A stretch of DNA of 25,438 nucleotides from a virus, in IMG/VR virus record IMGVR_UViG_3300031524_000077, positions 1-25,438 of that record; one strand, 5' to 3'. The notes below the pieces were generated by a model that had not been told where the DNA came from, did not search any database, and worked only from the letters and a program-made list of their open reading frames with translations. Position numbers and translations under genes: made by a program. This document shows positions 1,609 to 25,214 of this stretch, one piece after another. How positions within the stretch are numbered: position 1 is the first letter of the stretch; every line of letters begins with the position of its first letter.

Positions 1609-1813
1609 AATCTCCTATGCGAGACATCATCGCCTCCCCAGAAGTCGTGGCGGGTCAAACGATGAGAGTAACATCTCAATCGTTCCTCGTCATTTACACC
1701 AAGCGTGGCACACACTATTCGCTAACCATAGCCCAGAGGTCATCTGCGCTATCATCAACGAAAGGTGGATTCCGCATAACGTGGAGTTTCTTTGTCAGAC
1801 AAGGGCGCGATAA
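1565..1813 (+). CDS. Small HNH-nuclease-like protein
   Basis: An 82-residue protein with a strong ribosome site (AGGAGG) just ahead of the ATG. A basic N-terminus leads into RHHRLPRSRGGSND, then NISIVPRHLHQAWH. The His-His pair, the central Asn (NIS) and the final His match the HNH/beta-beta-alpha-metal core, and there are no zinc-binding cysteines. A tail containing INERWIP follows. I recall this compact form as common in CPR and phage genomes. Possible roles are DNA nicking or cleavage, or a DNA-binding protein derived from a nuclease; activity cannot be judged. It is the last gene of the plus-strand block, and its stop lies inside the terminator stem. Confidence 0.7.
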   Translation: MNYRREIRKLRRRDKISYARHHRLPRSRGGSNDESNISIVPRHLHQAWHTLFANHSPEVICAIINERWIPHNVEFLCQTRAR

Positions 1814-1826
1814 GCACCCTTTTTTA
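1801..1826 (+). terminator. Rho-independent terminator of the plus-strand block
   Basis: AAGGGCGC (1801-1808) pairs with GCACCCTT (1814-1821) with one C-A mismatch and a five-base loop, followed by a run of T (1820-1825). The HNH-like gene ends inside it. Confidence 0.75.
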
Positions 1827-1830
1827 TACA

Positions 1831-1861
1831 CAAAACCGCCCATTTATCGACCATAGGCGGT
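1831..1861 (-). terminator. Terminator of the endolysin transcript
   Basis: Read on the minus strand, ACCGCC (1861-1856) pairs with GGCGGT (1840-1835) and is followed by TTT. It faces the plus-strand terminator, so the two blocks converge here. Between it and the endolysin stop is a second hairpin (1875-1908), with arms GTAGTT/AACTAC and an inner CGCA/TGCG stem but no T run. Confidence 0.6.
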
Positions 1862-1911
1862 CTTGGTAAGGATAGTAGTTCGCAGTTTTGATGCGAAGTC
1901 GAAACTACCTG

Positions 1912-2380
1912 CTAACCGCTATCGGCTAGCACTTCGTTTTTCCATAGAACTTTGCTTGCTTCCCAATTAGAAATACCACCGTCTTTAATTACTTTTAATG
2001 CACAAATAGTAGAAGTATGTGGGTCGTTCTTTTCACTCATAGAATCGGCTACTTTGTATAAATCAATGCAATAATACTTAAATGAACCGTTGAGCCACTC
2101 CCAGAGTCCTGATGCACTAGACGAGGCGTTTTGAGCGTTTGGGTTGAAATTAGACTCGGCTTGAACTATCGAAAGGGCTAATTGAACAGGAACTCCCTCG
2201 CTTTGAGCTTCGGAGTTGATAAAATCTACGATTCGTTCCTTTGAAATATCGTAGTCTAAACGCCCTTCATGAACGATAGGGGTGGTGGTCGGAGCGTTAT
2301 AGGTTATGGTTTGGGACAGAGCTTGAACAAGGGATTCTAGTAAAATATTTTTAAAGTTATGCTTTCTTTGAGTCTCTCAT
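1912..2380 (-). CDS. Lytic transglycosylase (SLT fold), probable endolysin, with a frameshifted 5' end
   Basis: The frame from 2361 to the TAG at 1912 codes 149 residues and is free of stops but has no ATG, GTG or TTG near its beginning. It contains VQLALSIVQAESNFNP, then ASGLWEWLNGSF. This is the catalytic-Glu motif of SLT/goose-type transglycosylases (E-S-x-F-x-P, Glu codon at 2155-2157) followed by the G-L-W/M-Q-like helix. Such enzymes cut the glycan backbone of peptidoglycan. An ATG at 2378-2380 opens MRDSKK and then hits TAA in the other frame; skipping one base near 2362, in a purine-rich run, joins it to HNFKNILLESL, a plausible N-terminus. A sequencing error, a real lesion or recoding could each explain this. 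It lies beside the holin-like gene but has its own upstream region. The SLT call is confident; the start is not. Confidence 0.8.
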
Positions 2381-2430
2381 TCTACTGCGAAGCTCGACGA
2401 GAGTTTCCGTAGCGTTGCTGTTTCAGTATG

Positions 2431-2734
2431 AAAAGATAGACAGGATTCTGAACGTGCCAACGCGTTTGTAAATTGGAGGACATCTACGTTCAGAGTTCTA
2501 TCTACCTTTTGTAATTCTCTAAAGCAGGTCTATGAAGCTTTCACACTTCGCCCCAGTTTTATCTGATAGCTAACAGTAGTGAACACATTATCCTTTTGAC
2601 CGCATAGTTTCCTTAAGGAGTAGGGCAAAAAGCCCACTATTATCGGTCAGTCAAAAGACTTGTATATTTATCAGGCGACCACGCCCTAAGACGTCTTTCC
2701 GTCAGTCATCATAGACTTGATTTAGAGAACTACA
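2431..2734 (-). ncRNA. Candidate structured RNA with its own promoter, upstream of the endolysin
   Basis: This stretch holds no convincing gene but many nested complementary segments on the minus strand. UGUAGUUCUCUAAA (2734-2721) pairs with UUUAGAGAAUUACA (2523-2510): 14 pairs, one of them G-U. After a 4x4 internal loop, GUCUAUGA (2716-2709) pairs with UCAUAGAC (2535-2528). Inside, CUUUUGAC (2657-2650) pairs with GUCAAAAG (2600-2593) and encloses a GGGC-UUUUU-GCCC hairpin. A separate hairpin follows: GAUAGA (2502-2497) with UCUAUC (2440-2435), and UCUGAACGU (2494-2486) with ACGUUCAGA (2455-2447), then UUUU. The predicted transcription start (about 2734) coincides with the first base of the closing helix. 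It may be a free RNA or a very structured leader of the endolysin mRNA. I could not match it to a known family. Confidence 0.55.
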
Positions 2735-2740
2735 GGTTTA

Positions 2741-2768
2741 ATGGTATCAAAAAATAGTTATTTGTCAA
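2741..2768 (-). promoter_or_regulatory. Promoter for the structured RNA and endolysin
   Basis: On the minus strand a perfect TTGACA (2768-2763) is followed after 16 bases by TACCAT (2746-2741), which matches the -10 consensus at four positions. The start predicted about seven bases on falls at the 5' end of the long closing helix. It lies immediately after the terminator of the late block, as expected for an independent transcription unit. Confidence 0.55.
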
Positions 2769-2782
2769 ATGATAAGTTAAAC

Positions 2783-2832
2783 AAAAAACCGCTTTAAGAA
2801 GCTATAAAAATAGGTTTGTCTTCTAAGCGGTT
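2783..2832 (-). terminator. Strong terminator after the holin-like gene
   Basis: Read on the minus strand, AACCGCTT and AGAAG (2832-2820) pair with CTTCT and AAGCGGTT (2801-2787), with a two-base bulge, an 18-base loop and a following run of six T (2788-2783). It closes the late block. In the 80 bases up to the holin stop there is also a GGCG/CGCC hairpin and a 9-base direct repeat, GATATATAC, at 2895-2903 and 2906-2914. Confidence 0.8.
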
Positions 2833-2915
2833 CAGTATTTCTATTCCGTCTATATTTCAGGCGGTTCTGCCTCGCCGTATACTCGGTGGAGGAAGATATA
2901 TACCAGATATATACG

Positions 2916-3122
2916 TTAGATTCCCTTTACGCCAGCAACTTTTGCGAGTGCCTTATGTGCTACATATTGTCTGTAAACACCATAAAGAACGACTATTGCT
3001 GAAGCAACTGTTACAACGCTTTGAGTGGTGATACCTAAAAACGGAGCATAGTTGTTTATAAGACCGACAACGAAAGCGATTACCGCAGTATACGAACCCG
3101 ACGCATCAAAAACTGGAGTCAT
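2916..3122 (-). CDS. Holin-like small membrane protein
   Basis: A 68-residue protein with two hydrophobic segments, residues about 12-31 and 34-53, separated by a short polar turn and followed by a basic tail (RQYVAHKALAKV). This matches the general build of two-segment phage holins, which form inner-membrane holes and release the endolysin. It is the last gene of the late block, with a consensus promoter of its own upstream and a strong terminator and the endolysin gene downstream, which supports a lysis role. Sequence alone cannot separate a holin from another small membrane protein. The ATG is preceded by an A/T-rich leader without a Shine-Dalgarno site. Confidence 0.6.
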   Translation of the reverse strand: MTPVFDASGSYTAVIAFVVGLINNYAPFLGITTQSVVTVASAIVVLYGVYRQYVAHKALAKVAGVKGI

Positions 3123-3153
3123 ATTTTTAAAAAATTATTTAATAACGTATTTA

Positions 3154-3180
3154 ATTATACGCTTTCTATTGAATTGTCAA
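3154..3180 (-). promoter_or_regulatory. Consensus promoter for the holin-like gene
   Basis: TTGACA (3180-3175) and TATAAT (3159-3154) are both perfect, but the spacer is only 15 bases. The predicted start near 3147 gives a leader of about 25 bases. The remaining sequence between the peptidase-like gene and the holin (3181-3256) shows no further gene. Confidence 0.65.
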
Positions 3181-3256
3181 GAGTAGATATTAACTTTTTA
3201 CTATGACAGGACTTTCTAGTAAATTAAGTCTTCCACTACACCACAAAGTAAACATC

Positions 3257-4171
3257 TTAATTTATTATCTTTAACCATTTTAACAGGTTTATAAACTGTT
3301 GAACTACGGTAAGGGAAACTTGTTCCTGTCCTATAGTCTGTTGAGGAACTACTGAAACTACAGATAGAATTACCTGCGAAATCCAATAATCTGCCGAGAG
3401 GACTTTAGTAAACGGGTCATAATTATCTCCTATGAAAAAAGGAAAAGGATTTGTGCTTGCGTCAATAAACTCTATGTCTACGCAGTGTTGAAGTTGTTTT
3501 CCGCCATCCCAAGTGACCTGTCCACTATTCCATATGTATACGTTTTCTGGAATTGGAACACCGATAATAAGGGGTGCTTGTTTTTGAGCTTCCATAAGAA
3601 CGGACACCAAAGTATTTCCATCTCCGTTATTTATCCACTCGTTAGCGAGAGAGATATATTTCAAAGATTGAAGTCCGAGTGTAATCATTTGAGGAGTGAT
3701 ACGGTTTTGAGAGTAGTAAGCAGAGTCTTGTTCCTCTTGTGAGTTATATATTTGGCTTTCTTCTAAAGTCATTTCAAGCATTGGTCTAGGTATGACACCT
3801 TGAGTTCTTACCGATTCGACTAGATTCCACGGATTATTTCCATTTATAGTTGTGCCGTCTAAAATAGCGTTAAACTCATCAGAGAAAGAGAAGTTACCTG
3901 AAGCATCGAAGTAGTTGTTCGTAGTAAAGAAGTTTAATGCGTCTGGTGAAAACTTACCAAGACTTTTAAGCCAGTTACATTGAGCTTCGAGAGCTTTTAT
4001 AGGAGAGAGTTCTGAACATTCGTCAGTGTCAAATTTAAGCATCTGTTTCGTATGGTCGGTCTGAAAAGGTCGCCAATCTCCATTAGCAATATTTACTACA
4101 TAAGGAATTACGCCTTTAACGTAGTCTGACGGACTTTTTACGAATACAGGTTTGTTGCGAAAGGTGTTCAT
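3257..4171 (-). CDS. Papain-like cysteine peptidase-like phage protein
   Basis: A 304-residue protein; the ATG at 4171 lies one base after the preceding stop, whereas a GTG at 4216 would overlap that gene. A segment KFDTDECSELSPIKALEAQ places Cys52 at the start of a helix. Later come LQHCVDIEFI (His229) and FFIGDNYDPFTK (Asp249/Asn250). Cys, then His, then Asn/Asp is the order of C1 (papain-fold) peptidases. The pattern resembles phage structural-module proteins I recall with a 'FDT.aCvsfS' and '.DSYDPF' signature. The substrate is unknown: it could be host wall cross-links or a phage protein. The C-terminal 40 residues (VILSVVSVVPQQ onward) are hydrophobic to amphipathic and may contact a membrane. 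Its place next to membrane and lysis genes is compatible with host entry or exit. Confidence 0.5.
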   Translation of the reverse strand: MNTFRNKPVFVKSPSDYVKGVIPYVVNIANGDWRPFQTDHTKQMLKFDTDECSELSPIKALEAQCNWLKSLGKFSPDALNFFTTNNYFDASGNFSFSDEFNAILDGTTINGNNPWNLVESVRTQGVIPRPMLEMTLEESQIYNSQEEQDSAYYSQNRITPQMITLGLQSLKYISLANEWINNGDGNTLVSVLMEAQKQAPLIIGVPIPENVYIWNSGQVTWDGGKQLQHCVDIEFIDASTNPFPFFIGDNYDPFTKVLSADYWISQVILSVVSVVPQQTIGQEQVSLTVVQQFINLLKWLKIIN

Positions 4172-4919: not shown

Positions 4920-7517
4920 TTAACTATGTTCTAATAATACCCACCCGACAGAGCAAGTATCTGTGAGAGATGAGCTTGTGATTGTAAATGAGGTGGTCGT
5001 TGTGGCGGTGATTTTAGGAAATCCTACACACGTTCCAACTCCTTGGTCGGCTGGAAATATCACTGTGTTGTTATCAATCACCACTCCTGTTGTTAGATTA
5101 ACTGTCGCAACTCCGCTTGATTCGACAGCAGTACCAGCTGTCTTTCCAAAACTAACACGCCCCCATTGGTCTAATTCAAATATAGTCGTCGTAGCGACAC
5201 TTGGTGTGGTACTCGATACGACAAAATATGGTTTCGTATTGGTTACGGTTGTTGATGTTGCTATCGAAAGCATTGCCCACGGAGAAGTCGTTGCTCCTAT
5301 GCCTACATCGTCTTCCGAAGCGCCTGTACCGCTAATATAGAGAGGTATTAGACCAGTGATTTGGTCGTTAAACTCCAAATCTCTTGCCGAGTTATTCAGT
5401 ATTTCGTTCCATTCAGTTGAGTTGCCTGAACTTGCAAATATAATACCGCCAGAACTTTGTCTCGAAGTATATCCCGCAGCGGTAAGTGCGCCACCAATAG
5501 TTCCTACACCTGTATTTGATACCGAAAACTCGCTTGTACCCGCGATGTTATACGCGTTTATGATGTTCGTATTTCCTTTCATATTATTAATAGTCAATTC
5601 AGACGACGATACTGAAAGCGACGATGTACCTATTCCCACGTTTCCATTGTGGTCGATAAATAGAGGTGTCGATGTGGCTCCGCCACCCGCACTCGTCGAT
5701 GCGATTTCAAACATCGCTTGCGTCGCGCTGTATGTTGGCTGTGCGACAGTAAAGAGTGCGAACGGCGATGTTGTGCCGATGCCGACACTCGCGTTCGTGC
5801 CGTTTTGATAATAAATATTTGAACCGCTTGTTGTCCACTGACTTGCGCCGCTTATGCTGTTACATCCGAATGTTCCGTTGTTCCACGTCAGAGCGTTTGA
5901 GGCGGAATTACAACTCTGGAGATTGGCTCCGTAGAAGTTTGTCGATGAAGCGGTCGTCGCGAATAAATTTGTTGTTGTTGCATTTGTGCCGGTCGCGTTG
6001 AGGAACGTGAAGTTCTGCAAAGTCGTCGAACCGGCGGCAAAGAAGTTTGTCGAACTTGCGACGCCGAAGACGTCCAGTTTCGCCTGAGGATTGGTCTCTC
6101 CGATACCGACATTTCCATTTGCTAGGATAACCTCTCTGTCTGTGGCTTGTGTTTGAAAATGTATATATGCTTCTGTATTCGTGGTCGAAGCTGTACCGAC
6201 ATAAAGAGCGTTGTCACTTGCATAAAGATAACCGTCATTTGCATTTCCGAAAAAGTTAGTATTGTTTCCAGAGCTGTCTATTCCAAAATTTACATAATAA
6301 TTTGATTGACCTTGTGATGCATATGCGTAACCAAGATTGTTTTGTGCCAAAAAATCGGCAGAAGCGTTTGAGCCGTTGCTCAAATTTGAGGTATAGACTT
6401 CTTCGTAATTATTCACACTGCTTACACCCGCGAAAACATTTGTCGGGTATTGACTGTTTGTTGAGTCCACAAATAAAGGAGCTTGATTTGAGTCGGCGAC
6501 ATATTGTTCTGATGTCGTACCAATCAATAGAGAACCTGCGAAAGTTGAAGTAGCTGTCGAGGATGTGGCGACAAAATAAGAAAACCAAGCAGGAGCGGTT
6601 GTCGTTGCCGCATTGTAATAATTTCCTGCGTTGTTATAAAGCAAGAGTGAAGAACCTCCACCACCTCCACCACCCGTTGCATTGATAGTGAATGTCGGAT
6701 ATGTACCCGTGACGCTTATGTTCGTTCCGTTATTGAGAACGACAGTCTGGTCTGGAGCAGAGTTGGTTATCACACCGCCAGAATATCCTATGCCCGTTCC
6801 TGCAGAGAGAAGTCCACGGATGTAAGTTATAGCATTAGCTCCAAGACTTATATTTGAGGTATTGAAATTAGTCGTCGTGGCGTTTGTGGCGTAAAGATTC
6901 GTGGTTGATGCCGTGCCGTAGACTTCGAGATTAAAGTTTGGATTGGCAGTATTGATACCGACGTTGCCATTGGACAACACCTTAAGCATCGTATTTCCAC
7001 TTGATGAGGCAATGAGAAAAGGATTGGTCACCCCAGAGCCTGTTATCGAAAGAGAGGCGGAAGGACTTTTTGTCCCGATTCCTACCAGACTTGAAAAATA
7101 TCCTATCTGACTATTAGGGTCGAAGATGAACTTTGCCGATGAGGTCGAGTTTCCACCTACAGTCACGATGTCGGTGTTATTGAGAGAATAATTTATATAG
7201 GAAGATGTTTGAGAGGTTGTGGTTGCCCAGGTACCGCCACCCGAACCGCCACCCGAAGCACTTATCGTGTATGGACTTCCTGCAGTACCATTTCCCGTAA
7301 TAGTCACGTTTGCTCCTTGAGCGATGAGTCCGAGGATAGAAGCAGCGGTGACATTGAGAGTAGAGGTAGCGACAGGAGTGTAGTTTCCACCTGATTGATT
7401 TCCGATGAGTACCTGACCGTAAGCGGTTGATTGGGGAACAGTAACTTGAGCGCAATACGCAGTTAATGGTAAACTTAATGCTATTAGAGACAGGAAATAA
7501 ATAATTTTCTTATACAT
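4920..7517 (-). CDS. Large fibre/adhesin-like protein with N-terminal signal peptide
   Basis: An 865-residue protein. Residues 1-23 form a typical export signal: KK, a hydrophobic core FLSLIALSLPL, then TAYCA. The rest is Ser/Thr/Asn/Gly-rich beta repeat. The motif V-G-I-x-(T/E/A) followed by S/N-P and a hydrophobic strand recurs about six times (first at residues 145-149). Between repeats are (A/T)TSTTNFYA-like strands and two glycine linkers, GGGSGGG and GGGGGGGSS. The C-terminal 80 residues form a compact domain with two cysteines. Such repeats form trimeric beta fibres in phage tail fibres and also occur, with signal peptides, in surface proteins of CPR bacteria. A signal peptide is unexpected for a virion part assembled in the cytoplasm. 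It could be a secreted phage product or a captured host surface gene. A TGTTATAAT element stands directly before the ATG. Confidence 0.75.
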   Translation of the reverse strand: MYKKIIYFLSLIALSLPLTAYCAQVTVPQSTAYGQVLIGNQSGGNYTPVATSTLNVTAASILGLIAQGANVTITGNGTAGSPYTISASGGGSGGGTWATTTSQTSSYINYSLNNTDIVTVGGNSTSSAKFIFDPNSQIGYFSSLVGIGTKSPSASLSITGSGVTNPFLIASSSGNTMLKVLSNGNVGINTANPNFNLEVYGTASTTNLYATNATTTNFNTSNISLGANAITYIRGLLSAGTGIGYSGGVITNSAPDQTVVLNNGTNISVTGTYPTFTINATGGGGGGGSSLLLYNNAGNYYNAATTTAPAWFSYFVATSSTATSTFAGSLLIGTTSEQYVADSNQAPLFVDSTNSQYPTNVFAGVSSVNNYEEVYTSNLSNGSNASADFLAQNNLGYAYASQGQSNYYVNFGIDSSGNNTNFFGNANDGYLYASDNALYVGTASTTNTEAYIHFQTQATDREVILANGNVGIGETNPQAKLDVFGVASSTNFFAAGSTTLQNFTFLNATGTNATTTNLFATTASSTNFYGANLQSCNSASNALTWNNGTFGCNSISGASQWTTSGSNIYYQNGTNASVGIGTTSPFALFTVAQPTYSATQAMFEIASTSAGGGATSTPLFIDHNGNVGIGTSSLSVSSSELTINNMKGNTNIINAYNIAGTSEFSVSNTGVGTIGGALTAAGYTSRQSSGGIIFASSGNSTEWNEILNNSARDLEFNDQITGLIPLYISGTGASEDDVGIGATTSPWAMLSIATSTTVTNTKPYFVVSSTTPSVATTTIFELDQWGRVSFGKTAGTAVESSGVATVNLTTGVVIDNNTVIFPADQGVGTCVGFPKITATTTTSFTITSSSLTDTCSVGWVLLEHS

Positions 7518-7535: not shown

Positions 7536-8198
7536 TTAAGCTATTCCGAAAATAGAATTAGATGGAGTGATTAAAGTTGTGATTGTAAGTCCACTACTCG
7601 ACCACTGTACTACTCCATTGTTGTCAGTCTTTTGATACCATGCACCATCGACAACTAAGAATGTAGGCACTTGAGTGAAAGTGAAAGTTTGGTTTGAACC
7701 ATTGACTGTACCCGTGGCTGCAAGAACAGTAAATCCTCCGCCTCCTCTGACTACGGAAAGAGGATTAGCAAACGAACCGTCTCCAGTAAGAGTTGAATCT
7801 GTATATACCTTAAATCCAGCAGAAGACCATTGAATATTATCTTTTTTACTATTTAACCATTCCAAATCTTTTAAGTCGAAAATAGAAAGTTTGTTTTTTA
7901 ACTTTTCTATAATCTCATCTGTTGTTATTATATCTCCATCTTTACCTTTTAGTGGTTCTGGTATAAGAGGTTTAATCATCTCTAGTAGCTCTTCTTGTGT
8001 GGGGGTATAACCGTCGTCGCCTTTTATAGGTTTTGGGATAAGAGGAACTATGATTTCTTCCAATTCTTCTTTTGTTGGGGTATGACCATCATCACCCCTA
8101 AGTTTATTTCGGTCTATTTCCTCAAGTAAGTCAAGAATCTTCTCCTCAGGGGTAGAGAGTTTGTCGTATATTTCCTTAATCTTTTCAATTTTTGGCAT
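7536..8198 (-). CDS. Fibre protein with two tandem 25-residue repeats and C-terminal beta domain
   Basis: 220 residues from the ATG at 8198; a TTG at 8249 is possible but overlaps the upstream gene by 65 bases. After an N-terminal coiled-coil stretch come two near-identical 25-residue repeats (about 35-59 and 60-84), each starting GDDG(H/Y)TPT and ending in PLIP(K/E)P(I/L)K. A third, partial GKDGD unit follows. The G-x-x-G starts resemble short collagen-like or phage fibre linkers. The C-terminal half (GGGGFTVLAATGTVNG onward) is beta-rich and resembles receptor-binding domains of tail fibres. Its first bases overlap the end of the ATP-grasp gene by 14. Probable role: a tail fibre or spike involved in attachment. 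Confidence 0.65.
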   Translation of the reverse strand: MPKIEKIKEIYDKLSTPEEKILDLLEEIDRNKLRGDDGHTPTKEELEEIIVPLIPKPIKGDDGYTPTQEELLEMIKPLIPEPLKGKDGDIITTDEIIEKLKNKLSIFDLKDLEWLNSKKDNIQWSSAGFKVYTDSTLTGDGSFANPLSVVRGGGGFTVLAATGTVNGSNQTFTFTQVPTFLVVDGAWYQKTDNNGVVQWSSSGLTITTLITPSNSIFGIA

Positions 8199-9717
8199 AG
8201 ACAATTTTCTTAAGTCTTCTTCTAATTTCTTTCCGCTTTTTCTCTTCAACCTCTTTCTTGGACTTTTCTATATTTTGTTCGTTTGCTTTCTTTTGTTCAT
8301 CAGTAAGTATATAACCCCATTTAGTTAGTTCGTCTTTTGCTTTATGGTAATTAGATTTATCAAAATCATTTCTCCAAAAACCTTTAGGCACGACAATTTT
8401 ACTCAGTAAGTCGTTGAGATTTTTACCAGCATCTTCCACCTTTTCGGCAGTTTGAGAAGCTGTAAGCACATATCCATCGGCATTTGCTATCTGTAATCTA
8501 CCATCTTTGAAACGAAGTCCATCGGGGTGTACGTGTTTCCAATCTTCTTTTGTGAAGTCTTTTTTGAAGTTCACTTTTATACCCTCAGAGTTAGACATTC
8601 TAAAACTCATCACATCTGCGATTTCCTGCATACCTACTGGAGGTTTTCCTTTCTCATATACATCGGTCATCTTGTGAGAATTAACGAAAGGAAATGGTTT
8701 TGTGTAAAGCCAAGAAATAATACAGAACTTTGGGTCATACTGAAAGTCTTTTACTTGTGTTCCATCAGCGATAGCTTTAAGAAACTCATACCACGGAGTT
8801 TTATGTATCTCCAATAGTCCCGAAGTAGCAGGAACACCCATTCTCGGCGTGAACTCAAGAAAATAAGCACCCTTTTCAGTTACAATTGAGTTAATATCAA
8901 AATCTCCACGAAAATCTATTTGTTTAAGAAGCGGTCTGCATTTATCCAAAGTTTCTGAAAATAATTTAGAATCTTTTGCTTTTACCATTCGTTGAACGGT
9001 ATACTGCTCTCCTGTAGACTCTCCAAGTCCTCCCGGAAAGAGTGGTTTATGCTCAAAGTTCTCTTCACAAAGCTCGTTTCCATCTTTGTCTTTCATAAAC
9101 TCTTTACCATTCCAAAACGAACCGATAGCCATTTCGTGTCCTTCGATTTTTTCTTGTAGAACGAAGTCTTTTTTCACTCCTTCAATCCAATTCTTTTCTA
9201 GGATAGGAAGAAAGTCCAAAAGGTCTTCCGAATTAGGCATCTTAGAGACAAAGGAAAGACCCTTAATCTCATCTATTTTACCACACTGTTTTAACACAAA
9301 TTTTCCACCCTTTTCTTTTATGAATTTTGCCATTTCACCAAAATCAGTAAATGGATACATTTCAGGAGTAAGAACTCCACACATTTTTGCCATTTTATTT
9401 CCCCACATTCTGTCCAGTTCCAATTTATCGACAAGTTTTGAACCTCCTATAACTGATAGTCCTTGTTTTCTTAGTTCTACTGATTCGTCTCTAAAACTTT
9501 TGTCCTCATATATAACTAAATCGCAAGTTTTTGCATATTCTAATCTAGTGTCAAACGGTATTCTTTTTAGTGTTCCCTTTAGAATGTTAGTAGTTCTTTT
9601 CATAGCCAAAGCAACATCGCATCCTTCCATTTGAAGTTTCAAGTATAATGAGGGCGCAAGAAGTTCATCAGTTACACACAAAACCCCTTTTTTAGTATTT
9701 TCTATTTTGTTTTCCAT
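8185..9717 (-). CDS. PurD-like ATP-grasp ligase
   Basis: 510 residues with the full ATP-grasp order. The N-terminal domain (11-100) carries GVLCVTDELLAPSLYL in place of the PurD GxGGREHA motif. LELDRMWGNKMAKMCGVLTPE follows at 99-119. Lys143 lies in FVLKQCG. FVLQEKIEGHEMAIG (185-199) supplies adenine-binding and acidic residues. GDFDINSIV and FLEFTPRMG (Glu288) are metal-binding strands. A tail (GYVLTASQTAEKVEDA..., then GFWRNDF) resembles the PurD C-terminal domain. The last 40 residues are a basic helix absent from PurD. ATP-grasp enzymes join a carboxylate to an amine through an acyl phosphate. The missing N-terminal motif and the changed E-F-T-P-R metal strand suggest a different substrate from glycine plus phosphoribosylamine. 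It sits between the HNH and fibre genes, overlapping both. A role in modifying a virion or host component is inference. Confidence 0.75.
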   Translation of the reverse strand: MENKIENTKKGVLCVTDELLAPSLYLKLQMEGCDVALAMKRTTNILKGTLKRIPFDTRLEYAKTCDLVIYEDKSFRDESVELRKQGLSVIGGSKLVDKLELDRMWGNKMAKMCGVLTPEMYPFTDFGEMAKFIKEKGGKFVLKQCGKIDEIKGLSFVSKMPNSEDLLDFLPILEKNWIEGVKKDFVLQEKIEGHEMAIGSFWNGKEFMKDKDGNELCEENFEHKPLFPGGLGESTGEQYTVQRMVKAKDSKLFSETLDKCRPLLKQIDFRGDFDINSIVTEKGAYFLEFTPRMGVPATSGLLEIHKTPWYEFLKAIADGTQVKDFQYDPKFCIISWLYTKPFPFVNSHKMTDVYEKGKPPVGMQEIADVMSFRMSNSEGIKVNFKKDFTKEDWKHVHPDGLRFKDGRLQIANADGYVLTASQTAEKVEDAGKNLNDLLSKIVVPKGFWRNDFDKSNYHKAKDELTKWGYILTDEQKKANEQNIEKSKKEVEEKKRKEIRRRLKKIVYAKN

Positions 9718-18817: not shown

Positions 18818-19153
18818 TTATTTCTTGGTTAATTTATTATTGAGTCTTTCCGCTTTTTTCATCGTTTCTCCCGCTTGAGATTTGGTGTCCATTTCTTTCT
18901 TAAGAGCTTCATCGAGTTTCTTCACCTCTGCGGTGCGTCTTTCCGATGCCGCTACTAAAAGAGCTTTCTCACTAATCTCACGCTCTTGAACCGACTTAAA
19001 AGCAGTATCAATCAATTTACTAACCTGTGATACTTGTAATTCGATTTCTGTATCTGTAAGCGTTTGCTTGTCAGAATAGATAGTCGAAGTAAAGCTCACA
19101 TTCTCAGAACCAAACTGTCTCAAAGACGAAAACTTAAACTCATTTTGTTTCAT
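18818..19153 (-). CDS. Coiled-coil head-module protein, unknown
   Basis: 111 residues. The first 35 have beta character (FKFSSLRQFGSENVSFTSTIYS). The rest is a charged coiled coil (SQVSKLIDTAFKSVQEREISEKALL and on to the C-terminus). No family is recognised. A structured hairpin (19161-19181) sits seven bases ahead of its ATG. Confidence 0.5.
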   Translation of the reverse strand: MKQNEFKFSSLRQFGSENVSFTSTIYSDKQTLTDTEIELQVSQVSKLIDTAFKSVQEREISEKALLVAASERRTAEVKKLDEALKKEMDTKSQAGETMKKAERLNNKLTKK

Positions 19154-19160
19154 AATTTTT

Positions 19161-19181
19161 GTGCCTATTTTTGATAGCCAC
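19161..19181 (-). promoter_or_regulatory. RNA hairpin directly before a start codon
   Basis: On the minus strand GUGGCUAU pairs with AUAGGCAC with one G-G mismatch and a five-base loop, ending seven bases before the ATG at 19153. It is one of a repeated family (21553, 21603, 17837). Its 3' arm holds the only SD-like AGG near this start. Confidence 0.5.
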
Positions 19182-19204
19182 GATTATTTTTAATAAGAAC
19201 CTTG

Positions 19205-19251
19205 TTTTAGGTTCTATCGGGAGCGTATAAACGCCCCCTAAGAACCTAAAA
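19205..19251 (-). promoter_or_regulatory. Long hairpin just after the major capsid gene
   Basis: The outer stem TTTTAGGTTCT/AGAACCTAAAA (11 pairs) encloses a second stem, GGGGGCG/CGCTCCC, with one G-U pair. It starts about ten bases after the capsid stop. There is no T run, so it is more likely an RNA end protector, processing site or attenuator than a full terminator. It would separate capsid from downstream expression. Confidence 0.55.
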
Positions 19252-19260
19252 TCCTTCAGA

Positions 19261-20232
19261 CTATGCAGTCGTTCCCGAAAGCGTAGCTGAAACTTCGTTG
19301 CGAACCAATCTGTTGTTGTCCAAAATTGCCGCAACACCTTCCCATTTCCAACCGACAGTAGAGCGTTGCTCCAACGGGTCGGAAGTGTCCTGAACACCAC
19401 CAGTGTGGATGTAAGTCTTCAAACCAGCAGAGAACTCAGAGACCGCGTAAGCACCCTTACCGTAAGCAAGAACACCATATACGTTCTGACCAGTAGAACC
19501 CGCACCCACGAATACCGGCGACATAGTTGTCGATATAATGCGTGCGCCTTGCCAATAACCCAATTCTCCCGTGAAGAGGTCTCCACGATACTCATTTGAC
19601 GGAGTAGGAGATGAGTAATTGACTGCCGAAATCCAAGAAGTATCGAGTCGAAGGTCATACATAACGTCTGGATGACCAACGACAGCATAAGCTGAGCCAA
19701 TAACAGGAATCGCATCGAACTTCTGAACATTGTTTCGCTCAAGCCAGCGAATATCACGAGTGATAAGAGCTGAAGTGAGTTTCATAGCAGATGTAACCGT
19801 TACACGAGATGATACTGTACCATCTCCGTAGATTACGTTCGTACCTGCCGCAACGACGTTCATAATCGTTGTGTCAATGGTTTCAGTTGCCTGAATACCA
19901 AGAACATCTGAAGCATCCTTAATCATTGAACGGTCATAGAGGAACTCCGCAACGTCGGTAATGACTGTGAAGTCACCGTATTGCGAGAGAACCGCCGTAA
20001 CTGAGTTCATCGTAAGGTTTGAACCTGAAGGGGTTACTCCTTCGTTAAGAGGAGTAAGAGCAAGAGCGAGTCGGTTGAAACCACGGAAGATAACAGTCTT
20101 GCTGTTGCTTCCTTTCGTTACCGGAGTAACTTTCGATGTCTTGTACCAGAGAAGTTTCTGTTTCAAGATGTCAATAAGTTCCTTCGCAACGATTTTCTGA
20201 CCTACATCGATTGCGTTAAATATTGTAGCCAT
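19261..20232 (-). CDS. Major capsid protein, N4-gp56 family
   Basis: 323 residues, within the usual length of this family. The N-terminus (about 1-50) has a helical opening followed by KTVIFRGFNRLALALTPLNEGVTPSG (residues 46-70). SVTAVLSQYGDFTVITDVAEFLYDR and LGIQATETIDTTIMNVVAAGTNVIYGDGT follow. This order is that of the N4-gp56-type HK97-fold capsid proteins of podovirus-like phages. C-terminal parts include GHPDVMYDLRLDTSWI and LGYWQGARIISTTMSPVF. It forms the capsid shell. The scaffold-like and head surface genes lie upstream and a strong hairpin follows the stop. No Shine-Dalgarno sequence precedes the ATG; the leader is A/T-rich. Confidence 0.9.
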   Translation of the reverse strand: MATIFNAIDVGQKIVAKELIDILKQKLLWYKTSKVTPVTKGSNSKTVIFRGFNRLALALTPLNEGVTPSGSNLTMNSVTAVLSQYGDFTVITDVAEFLYDRSMIKDASDVLGIQATETIDTTIMNVVAAGTNVIYGDGTVSSRVTVTSAMKLTSALITRDIRWLERNNVQKFDAIPVIGSAYAVVGHPDVMYDLRLDTSWISAVNYSSPTPSNEYRGDLFTGELGYWQGARIISTTMSPVFVGAGSTGQNVYGVLAYGKGAYAVSEFSAGLKTYIHTGGVQDTSDPLEQRSTVGWKWEGVAAILDNNRLVRNEVSATLSGTTA

Positions 20233-20857: not shown

Positions 20858-21544
20858 TTATCCTTTCATACTTTCAAGCATATCGTAGAGTTCATCTTTC
20901 GATTTTCCTTCTGTACTAATCGTTCCCCTATTCGGAGTAGATGCAGTCTTTTCAATCGGCTTAATTTTATTCAGAGATATATCCGCTACAATTTCTCCAA
21001 CAAGTGCTTTTAAGGACTGATTGGGATTTCGTAGGAAAGTCTTTTTCAAATCATTTTCATAATCTGAAAGACCTTCTATTCCCTTGTATTTACCAAACTC
21101 TAAATCGAATTTAGCTTCATTGTTTTTCTGTTCTATGGGTGCAAGAATGGTAGAAGTCTCACTCTTAATCACACCATAAAACTTTTCCAACAACTCACGA
21201 GAGGGTTTATCTTGAACTGCACTAAGGAATTCCTGAACGTTCTTAAATTCGTGGGTGGGTTTAGTCTCTTCTTTAGGAGTTTCTTTGGGAGTTTCCTTTT
21301 CAGGTTCTGCCTTAGATTCTGCTAACTTTTTGACTTCTTCAGCCAATCCTCTAATACGTTTTTGAGCGCGGGGACTGAGTTTAGATATTTCTTCTTCACT
21401 TAATTCCGCCTCATTGTCATCTTCTTTTGGAGTGATGACTTCCTCCTTTGGTTTTTCGAGGGACGCCTCGGGGGTTTCCACTTCCTCTGATTCAAGAGTC
21501 TTTTTCAACTCAGCATACAAATCTACGTCTTTTTCTTTTTCCAT
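20858..21544 (-). CDS. Scaffold-like capsid assembly protein
   Basis: 228 residues, strongly acidic and helical. A Glu/Pro/Lys-rich first half (LAEEVKKLAESKAEPEKETP...) is followed by a helical region (FLSAVQDKPSRELLEKFYGVIK) and a small basic-to-neutral end (NKIKPIEKTASTPNRGT). High charge, helicity and position between portal and capsid are typical of internal scaffolding proteins that guide prohead assembly and then leave. Two hairpins of the head-gene family lie upstream (21553-21572 and 21603-21622). Confidence 0.6.
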   Translation of the reverse strand: MEKEKDVDLYAELKKTLESEEVETPEASLEKPKEEVITPKEDDNEAELSEEEISKLSPRAQKRIRGLAEEVKKLAESKAEPEKETPKETPKEETKPTHEFKNVQEFLSAVQDKPSRELLEKFYGVIKSETSTILAPIEQKNNEAKFDLEFGKYKGIEGLSDYENDLKKTFLRNPNQSLKALVGEIVADISLNKIKPIEKTASTPNRGTISTEGKSKDELYDMLESMKG

Positions 21545-23745: not shown

Positions 23746-23754
23746 ATTATAACA
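23746..23754 (-). promoter_or_regulatory. Extended -10 element before the portal gene
   Basis: TGTTATAAT (23754-23746) sits in the 37-base gap after the terminase. The start would be near 23739, so here a leader of about 14 bases is possible. Confidence 0.4.
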
Positions 23755-23762
23755 CATAAAAT

Positions 23763-25214
23763 CTATTTCAAATAACCAGTCCTAGAATCTAACTGCATCT
23801 CCTCTATTGCCTGTTGGTATTCAGACTTTAATTTAATTGGCGGTTGTGCTATCTGTTCTTGATAAGCGAGCGCGTCTACCGCGTCATCGTTTATACCTTT
23901 GGGAAAGCGTAACATCTCATCTTCTAAAGAATCGCATTGACCTTTGACGTGAAATATCTTTCCAGCTTCGTATCGGGGTATGAGTCCTCGTATTCTAAGC
24001 TCTTTATTCGTTCCGTGGTGCTTCAAAGAGACAATAACGGGGAATATGTTACGTTTTATCATTTCGAGACGTATAAAGGGGTATACAGCATCTAGATAGG
24101 TCGTTTCTTCTATACCTATGGAGTCGGGTCTCTCCTTTGTCCAAAGCTCGAATATCCAATCTATGAGTTTAGCGGAGTTTATACGTTGCTTGTTAGCTCT
24201 GATATACCAGTTATTATCCTCGTCTATTTTGTTTATAATCGTTCCCGTATAATCGGCACTATCTTTTTCTTTTACGGCAGGATCGATAGTTATAAAACAA
24301 TTAGTCCTTTTTTCTAATAGATCATACTCATTTACATAGTGAAACATCTCACGCTTAAACTCTTGCGTCTCGGAGTTGATGGGATTCTGTTGATAGAGCG
24401 AGGACCATTCATACGTTCCAATATCTCCCTTTGTTTTGAGTAAGTTAGATAAATCATATTGCGCAGACCATAACGCCTCGCCTTTCTTTCTGTGTCCTTC
24501 GTCTACTTCAGCAATAGCGGGAAATGATATAATCTCCCAGTCGTTCTTGTTGTCACTTGATAAGAGTCTTCCCGCTAAGTCGTCATCGTGCCAGCGTGTA
24601 ACGCATAGTATAACAGCACCGGAAGGGCTTAGACGTGTTCTAGCCGTTGACTTATACCAATTGTATATATTCTCACGAATAAGAAAAGAATCAGCCTCCT
24701 TTCTGTTTTTGATAGGATCGTCAATGATTAGCACATCAGCGCCTTTACCGGTTGCCGCGCCACCGACACCGAGAGCATTATACTTTCCTCGTCCATTAGT
24801 TGACCAAGTTGACTTTGATTGACTATCTTCCGCAAGCGTAGTATCGAATATGTTTTTGTATTCTGGAGAATCTACAATATTACGAGCTTGTCTGCCAAAC
24901 TCCGTAGCCAAATCCGCCGAGTAGCTAGCTTCGATAACGCTTTTATCTTTGTCCTTTCCTAATACATACGGAGGAAAGTTTATAGATACCATTTCAGATT
25001 TACTATGGCGAGGCGGTAAGAATATCATCAGACGTTTACACGTTCCATTTTCTACACGATTAAGAGCGTCAGCGATGACTCTATGATGCCAGCTTACTTT
25101 GAACCACGGCGACGTGTATCTAATAAAATAAAGAAAATCACGCCGAGCGAGTAAACGTTTTGCCGCTTCCTTTTTAGCTTCGCTATTCTCCAATAAGTTT
25201 TGCGAGATCTTCAT
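23763..25214 (-). CDS. terL: Terminase large subunit
   Basis: 483 residues. ATPase: Walker A LPPRHSKS (66-73), Walker B VLIIDDP (161-167, followed by IKNRKEA), and TRWHDDDLAGRL (206-217), typical of TerL coupling and following helix. RNase H-like nuclease: ITIDPAVKEKDSADYTG (Asp311), IGIEETTY (Glu369-370) and INDDAVDALAYQ (Asp443/444/447). Together these are the DNA packaging motor and genome-cutting enzyme. All main catalytic residues are present. It overlaps the end of the small-subunit gene by 32 bases. Confidence 0.95.
   Translation of the reverse strand: MKISQNLLENSEAKKEAAKRLLARRDFLYFIRYTSPWFKVSWHHRVIADALNRVENGTCKRLMIFLPPRHSKSEMVSINFPPYVLGKDKDKSVIEASYSADLATEFGRQARNIVDSPEYKNIFDTTLAEDSQSKSTWSTNGRGKYNALGVGGAATGKGADVLIIDDPIKNRKEADSFLIRENIYNWYKSTARTRLSPSGAVILCVTRWHDDDLAGRLLSSDNKNDWEIISFPAIAEVDEGHRKKGEALWSAQYDLSNLLKTKGDIGTYEWSSLYQQNPINSETQEFKREMFHYVNEYDLLEKRTNCFITIDPAVKEKDSADYTGTIINKIDEDNNWYIRANKQRINSAKLIDWIFELWTKERPDSIGIEETTYLDAVYPFIRLEMIKRNIFPVIVSLKHHGTNKELRIRGLIPRYEAGKIFHVKGQCDSLEDEMLRFPKGINDDAVDALAYQEQIAQPPIKLKSEYQQAIEEMQLDSRTGYLK

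Follow-up and report, generated by a model that had tools for sequence, protein, structure and literature searches.

A strongly folded noncoding element upstream of a phage endolysin gene, tentatively read as a structured leader

Positions 2431–2734 on the minus strand of a 25,438-base phage record, analysed at its full length and called the window here, are predicted to fold far more stably than shuffled versions of the same segment. Our preferred reading, which we hold tentatively and put somewhat below an even chance, is that the segment forms an orphan structured 5′ leader of the endolysin transcript, made from a promoter of its own and perhaps processed into a free RNA. The element is plausibly a credible orphan, if less striking than at first reading.

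The late genes of the phage run leftward, from the terminase through the capsid gene, the tail region and a gene for a holin-like protein to the gene for the lysis enzyme (Table 1). The tail-region and plus-strand proteins resemble those of the Patescibacteria, which suggests a host in that group. The holin-like protein has no family match. Along the minus strand, the holin-like gene is followed by a terminator-like hairpin, a promoter-like site, the folded segment and then the SLT-type lysis enzyme. No coding frame spans 2431–2734 and no coding signal is present over 2360–2734, in agreement with the initial annotation, which had seen no credible gene in the segment next to an endolysin.

The minus strand of the segment has a minimum free energy (MFE) of −108.6 kcal/mol, where dinucleotide shuffles average −71.1 (z −9.0), and none of 100 shuffles is as stable. 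On a common scale with a pooled standard deviation it scores −7.8, whereas 81 other 304-nt segments have a mean of −0.4 and a minimum of −4.6, making this the most stable fold among the 304-nt stretches compared (z about −8 to −9). The segment holds two imperfect inverted repeats that are the top two of the window, I1 (26 nt, 2709–2734/2510–2535, 88% complementary) and I2 (25 nt, 2486–2510/2431–2455, 84% complementary), which abut and have base 2510 in common. The best inverted-repeat match is 22/25 in the real window, as against 18–19 in 10 windows shuffled whole or block-wise. Taken with the shuffled folds, this comparison confirms the observation and places it far outside what chance would give. 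The 173-nt interior of I1 on its own reaches a z of only about −2.3, so that the surplus stability resides mostly in the two inverted repeats and not in an ornate core, although individual helices of the interior have mean pair probabilities of 0.7–1.0. The plus strand is nearly as stable (z −6.6; −7.2 on the common scale against −7.8 for the minus strand), and departures from perfect pairing in the arms, which we read by eye, yield equal numbers of G-U pairs on either strand. Given this near symmetry, the fold by itself cannot separate an RNA from a DNA palindrome.

The predicted element comprises two domains (Table 1). In domain 1, a closing helix of 14 pairs (2734–2721/2523–2510, one G-U) is continued by an 8-pair helix (2716–2709/2535–2528) that stacks on it via mismatches, the two together constituting I1. 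Most helices of the element have mean pair probabilities of 0.7–1.0, and those of the arm with the GGGC hairpin (2635–2632/2626–2623) are 0.71–1.0. The closing helix, the stacked helix and the GGGC-hairpin arm all lie where the initial annotation had placed them. Domain 2 forms 9 pairs at 2494–2486/2455–2447 and 12 at 2509–2498/2443–2432; it had been described as a 3′ hairpin of 9 and 6 pairs, of which the first count holds and the second falls short by half. Domain 2 is a candidate site for double-strand processing, or a candidate 3′ border of a free RNA.

Table 1 Features of the locus and predicted architecture of the folded element
Feature	Position	Strand or direction	Basis or remark
Terminase TerL	23763-25214	leftward late gene	PHROG 38
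Capsid protein	19261-20232	leftward late gene	Pfam Phage_capsid_4
Gene for a small, holin-like membrane protein (68 aa)	2916..3122	(-)	hydrophobic sequence and position only
Terminator-like hairpin (intrinsic type), AACCGCTTAGAAG...CTTCTTAAAGCGGTTTTTT	2783..2832	(-)	sequence; pairs in centroid fold
Sigma70-type promoter-like site TTGACA-16-TACCAT, TG one base ahead of -10	2741..2768	(-)	10/12
Domain 1, 225 nt: predicted five-way junction of the closing helix, two arms and two short hairpins	2510..2734	(-)	MFE -80.5, z -6.6
Closing helix, 5′ arm (I1)	2709..2734	(-)	26 nt, 88% complementary to 2510-2535
Closing helix, 3′ arm (I1)	2510..2535	(-)	inverted-repeat search
Hairpin A (GACG-GAAAGA-CGUC)	2690..2703	(-)	predicted fold and pair probabilities
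Hairpin B (GGGCG-UGGU-CGCCU)	2673..2686	(-)	predicted fold and pair probabilities
Arm C, long, interrupted; includes GGGC-UUUUU-GCCC hairpin and palindrome UCCUUAAGGA	2583..2665	(-)	predicted fold and pair probabilities
Arm D	2541..2582	(-)	predicted fold and pair probabilities
Domain 2, long irregular hairpin I2, arms 2486-2510 and 2431-2455	2431..2509	(-)	z -4.4
Lysis enzyme (endolysin), SLT transglycosylase domain	1912..2346	(-)	Pfam SLT E 7e-10; 5′ end is the probable AUU 2346

The promoter-like site preceding the element is the only one that scores at least 10/12 within 1800–3300 in a scan with spacers of 16–18 nt. Sites scoring 9/12 or better are about as frequent as chance predicts (4 found, 3.6 expected). 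Exact TTGACA is present nine times on the minus strand and is accompanied by a matching −10 only here and at 3180, where both hexamers, TTGACA and TATAAT, are perfect and lie 15 nt apart upstream of the holin-like gene. The −10 ends at 2741, 7 nt ahead of the first base of the closing helix. A promoter that starts the RNA exactly at that base, as first suggested, is plausible as regards the site, but its exactness was overstated: the −10 hexamer TACCAT agrees at 4/6 positions, and the position of the start is defined to no better than about 2 nt.

The hairpin at 2783–2832 exceeds the loop limit of our pattern scan for terminators and was therefore missed by it; from its terminator-like appearance, it would close the holin-like transcript and separate the holin-like gene from the folded segment. 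The scan found no terminator-like site inside the segment and no intrinsic terminator between the segment and the endolysin, where past 2431 there is only CUUUU. The choice between a free RNA and an endolysin leader, both of which the initial annotation had allowed, is thereby tilted slightly towards a leader or processed leader. A separate cluster of hairpins with the look of a bidirectional terminator lies at 1801–1960 (minus strand, z −4.9), where the leftward late genes meet rightward genes.

Ahead of its SLT domain, the frame of the endolysin lacks an ATG, GTG or TTG; it is open upstream only as far as the TGA at 2377–2379, and shows a clear coding signal only below about 2316–2346. In the window, TTTAAAAATAT occurs only at 2344–2355 and 3120–3131 (minus strand), and the next base is T at the endolysin (ATT) and G at the holin-like gene (ATG). 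With both strands searched, the only two instances of TTTAAAAAT are likewise TTTAAAAATATG, at the holin start, and TTTAAAAATATT, at 2355–2344. Because TTTAAAAATAT is common to the two starts and found nowhere else, AUU 2346 is the probable start of the endolysin, sharing with the holin start the context TTTAAAAATAT followed by G or T. A mutated or misassembled start is a possible alternative. An AUU start would suit a lysis gene with weak expression. We rejected readthrough of the TGA stop, as the frame beyond about 2346 shows no clear coding signal. We also rejected a switch that works by simple occlusion of the start codon, because the predicted accessibility of the endolysin start hardly differs between the full leader (0.65) and its absence (0.64–0.65).

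Elsewhere on the minus strand, six extended −10 sites TGNTATAAT stand directly before late genes, at 23754, 21944, 15739, 13499, 10217 and 7532, five of them being TGTTATAAT and one TGCTATAAT. The distance from the extended −10 to the start codon is 6–20 nt across the six genes, and TATAAT and ATG are 6–8 nt apart in five. Late messages from these sites are probably leaderless or nearly so, with an own promoter for each gene or small group, which would make a 388-nt leader ahead of the endolysin exceptional in this genome.

We infer transcription, processing, the AUU start and a function for the element along the following lines. RNA polymerase would start at about 2734, just past the terminator of the holin-like gene, and the first 26 nt of the transcript would close a folded 225-nt domain, to be followed by a long irregular hairpin. 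With no terminator in between, the transcript would continue into the endolysin, 84 nt separating the hairpin from the probable, weak AUU start. The action of the element would be chiefly in cis: as a 5′ leader, it would stabilize or time the endolysin message, and the long hairpin could be cleaved by a double-strand-specific RNase to give, in addition, a free RNA of about 225–305 nt. A wider claim, that the element represents an undescribed class of compact RNAs, self-closed through their 5′ and 3′ ends, that lie between holin and endolysin and govern lysis timing in phages of (probably) Patescibacteria, seems to us rather unlikely. To our knowledge, structured leaders on phage lysis genes have rarely been described. 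If transcribed and conserved, the element would provide the lysis cassette of this phage, which belongs to a poorly known group, with RNA-based control or a structural RNA, and it offers a defined 300-nt target for direct test.

Searches of the segment against Rfam gave no family match, GOLLD (not even at E 10), ROOL and the phi29 packaging RNA included, which bears out the original decision to assign it to none of these. A match to mir-266 (E 0.12–0.35, far below the cut-off) comes from hairpin I2 on the plus strand and was dismissed as chance. We scanned viral contigs with the endolysin, the terminase, a 319-aa tail-region protein, a 684-aa protein, the ATP-grasp protein and an HNH protein as queries, searched phage and plasmid sequences by blastn and phages by tblastn with the endolysin and holin, and scanned bacterial genomes. 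No homologue of the segment was found in another phage across the viral contigs, bacterial genomes, and phage and plasmid sequences, a lack of matches that is no evidence of uniqueness. The only close relatives (L003–L008 and L011–L014, with terminases 50–100% identical) are partial contigs that stop short of the lysis genes, as does the best of them, a 21-kb contig (L011/L089/L090). A single-sequence covariance model of the element (R1), run over 86 sources totalling 0.95 Mb, gave no notable matches except to the two strands of the window, the minus strand scoring higher than the plus strand (36.5 bits). Matches to the SLT domain in L002 and L092–L094 are distant and confined to the domain, with an unrelated context in L002, and a 21/26 match to one arm in L070 lies inside an open reading frame, the partner arm not being seen; we discarded both.

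Phi29-type phages possess a small RNA, the pRNA, whose two ends pair to close it. Our element is likewise predicted to close by pairing of its two ends; unlike the pRNA, it has no Rfam match, it neighbours the lysis genes at a distance of over 20 kb from the terminase, and the TerL here is an ordinary one and not a gp16-type packaging ATPase. Messages of T7-type phages carry structured 5′ leaders and hairpins processed by RNase III, which the long irregular hairpin in the predicted leader of a late gene resembles. They differ in that a much larger domain is added here and the predicted accessibility of the start is unaltered by the leader. GOLLD and ROOL RNAs share with the element that they are phage-borne, non-coding and highly folded. 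ROOL has a length of about 660 nt, many GOLLD RNAs are longer than 800 nt, and a location near tRNA islands is common (PMC12286853), whereas the element measures 225–305 nt, in a window without a tRNA, and at about 300 nt falls outside the ROOL length of about 600–660 nt.

The element might instead be a free-standing phage noncoding RNA with its own promoter, in which I2 marks the 3′ end, the closeness to the endolysin is incidental and the role, though not the family, is like that of GOLLD or ROOL. The start of the closing helix at the predicted transcription start and the abutting arms, which suggest a compact self-contained molecule, point this way, as do the folding of the element independently of the endolysin region and the reported rise of GOLLD expression at phage lysis (PMC12286853). 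The CUUUU past 2431 is not a proper terminator, the interior fold is weak, homologues were not found and the element is far smaller than GOLLD or ROOL, and we regard a free-standing RNA as somewhat unlikely. It would be improbable, in our judgement, that the long hairpins are only transcription punctuation, acting as bidirectional terminators or 3′ stabilizers between transcripts, with a 225-nt domain that has no specific role. I2 has A-rich and U-rich flanks and the other transcript end is hairpin-rich too (1801–1960), but a complete terminator-like hairpin is already present at 2783–2832, and the 225-nt domain exceeds the size of a terminator and lacks a U-tract, no terminator-like site having been found in the segment.

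The near strand symmetry of the fold, together with the concentration of the surplus in two inverted repeats around an interior of z −2.3, would also be compatible with an element that acts as DNA, the RNA fold being a by-product: either a small mobile element of 225 bp, bounded by terminal inverted repeats (TGTA...TACA), or a palindromic site for protein binding or replication. As in miniature inverted-repeat elements, the stretch is non-coding and its 26-nt terminal repeats start with TG and finish with CA. Against this, the flanks (...TTAAACC / AAAGGTA...) show no direct target-site duplication, neither the window nor roughly 1 Mb of retrieved phage loci yielded a second copy, the Pfam-scanned proteins of the window include no transposase, integrase or reverse transcriptase, and a second, abutting inverted repeat, which would not be expected of such an element, is present, as is an upstream promoter-like site; we consider a DNA-level origin quite unlikely. 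A self-splicing intron, or its remnant, interrupting the endolysin would account for the missing ATG, GTG or TTG and for a frame that closes at the TGA. Such an intron is very improbable: no group I or II match was obtained in Rfam even at E 10 with permissive filters over 501–1501 bases, there is no upstream exon, a terminator and a promoter precede the element, and the missing ATG would be explained by an AUU start in the holin start context. The structured leader, perhaps processed, remains the reading that we prefer.

Among the late genes, an ATP-grasp protein of GARS_A type is encoded at 8185–9717 (minus strand; E 2e-8) and is 68% identical to its counterpart in the related 21-kb contig. 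Predicted folds are unusually stable within late coding genes at 20970–21230 and 19101–19400 (z about −4.6). The C terminus of a tail-fibre-like protein encoded at 4920–7517 (minus strand) matches the K1-lyase_C domain (E 9e-7).
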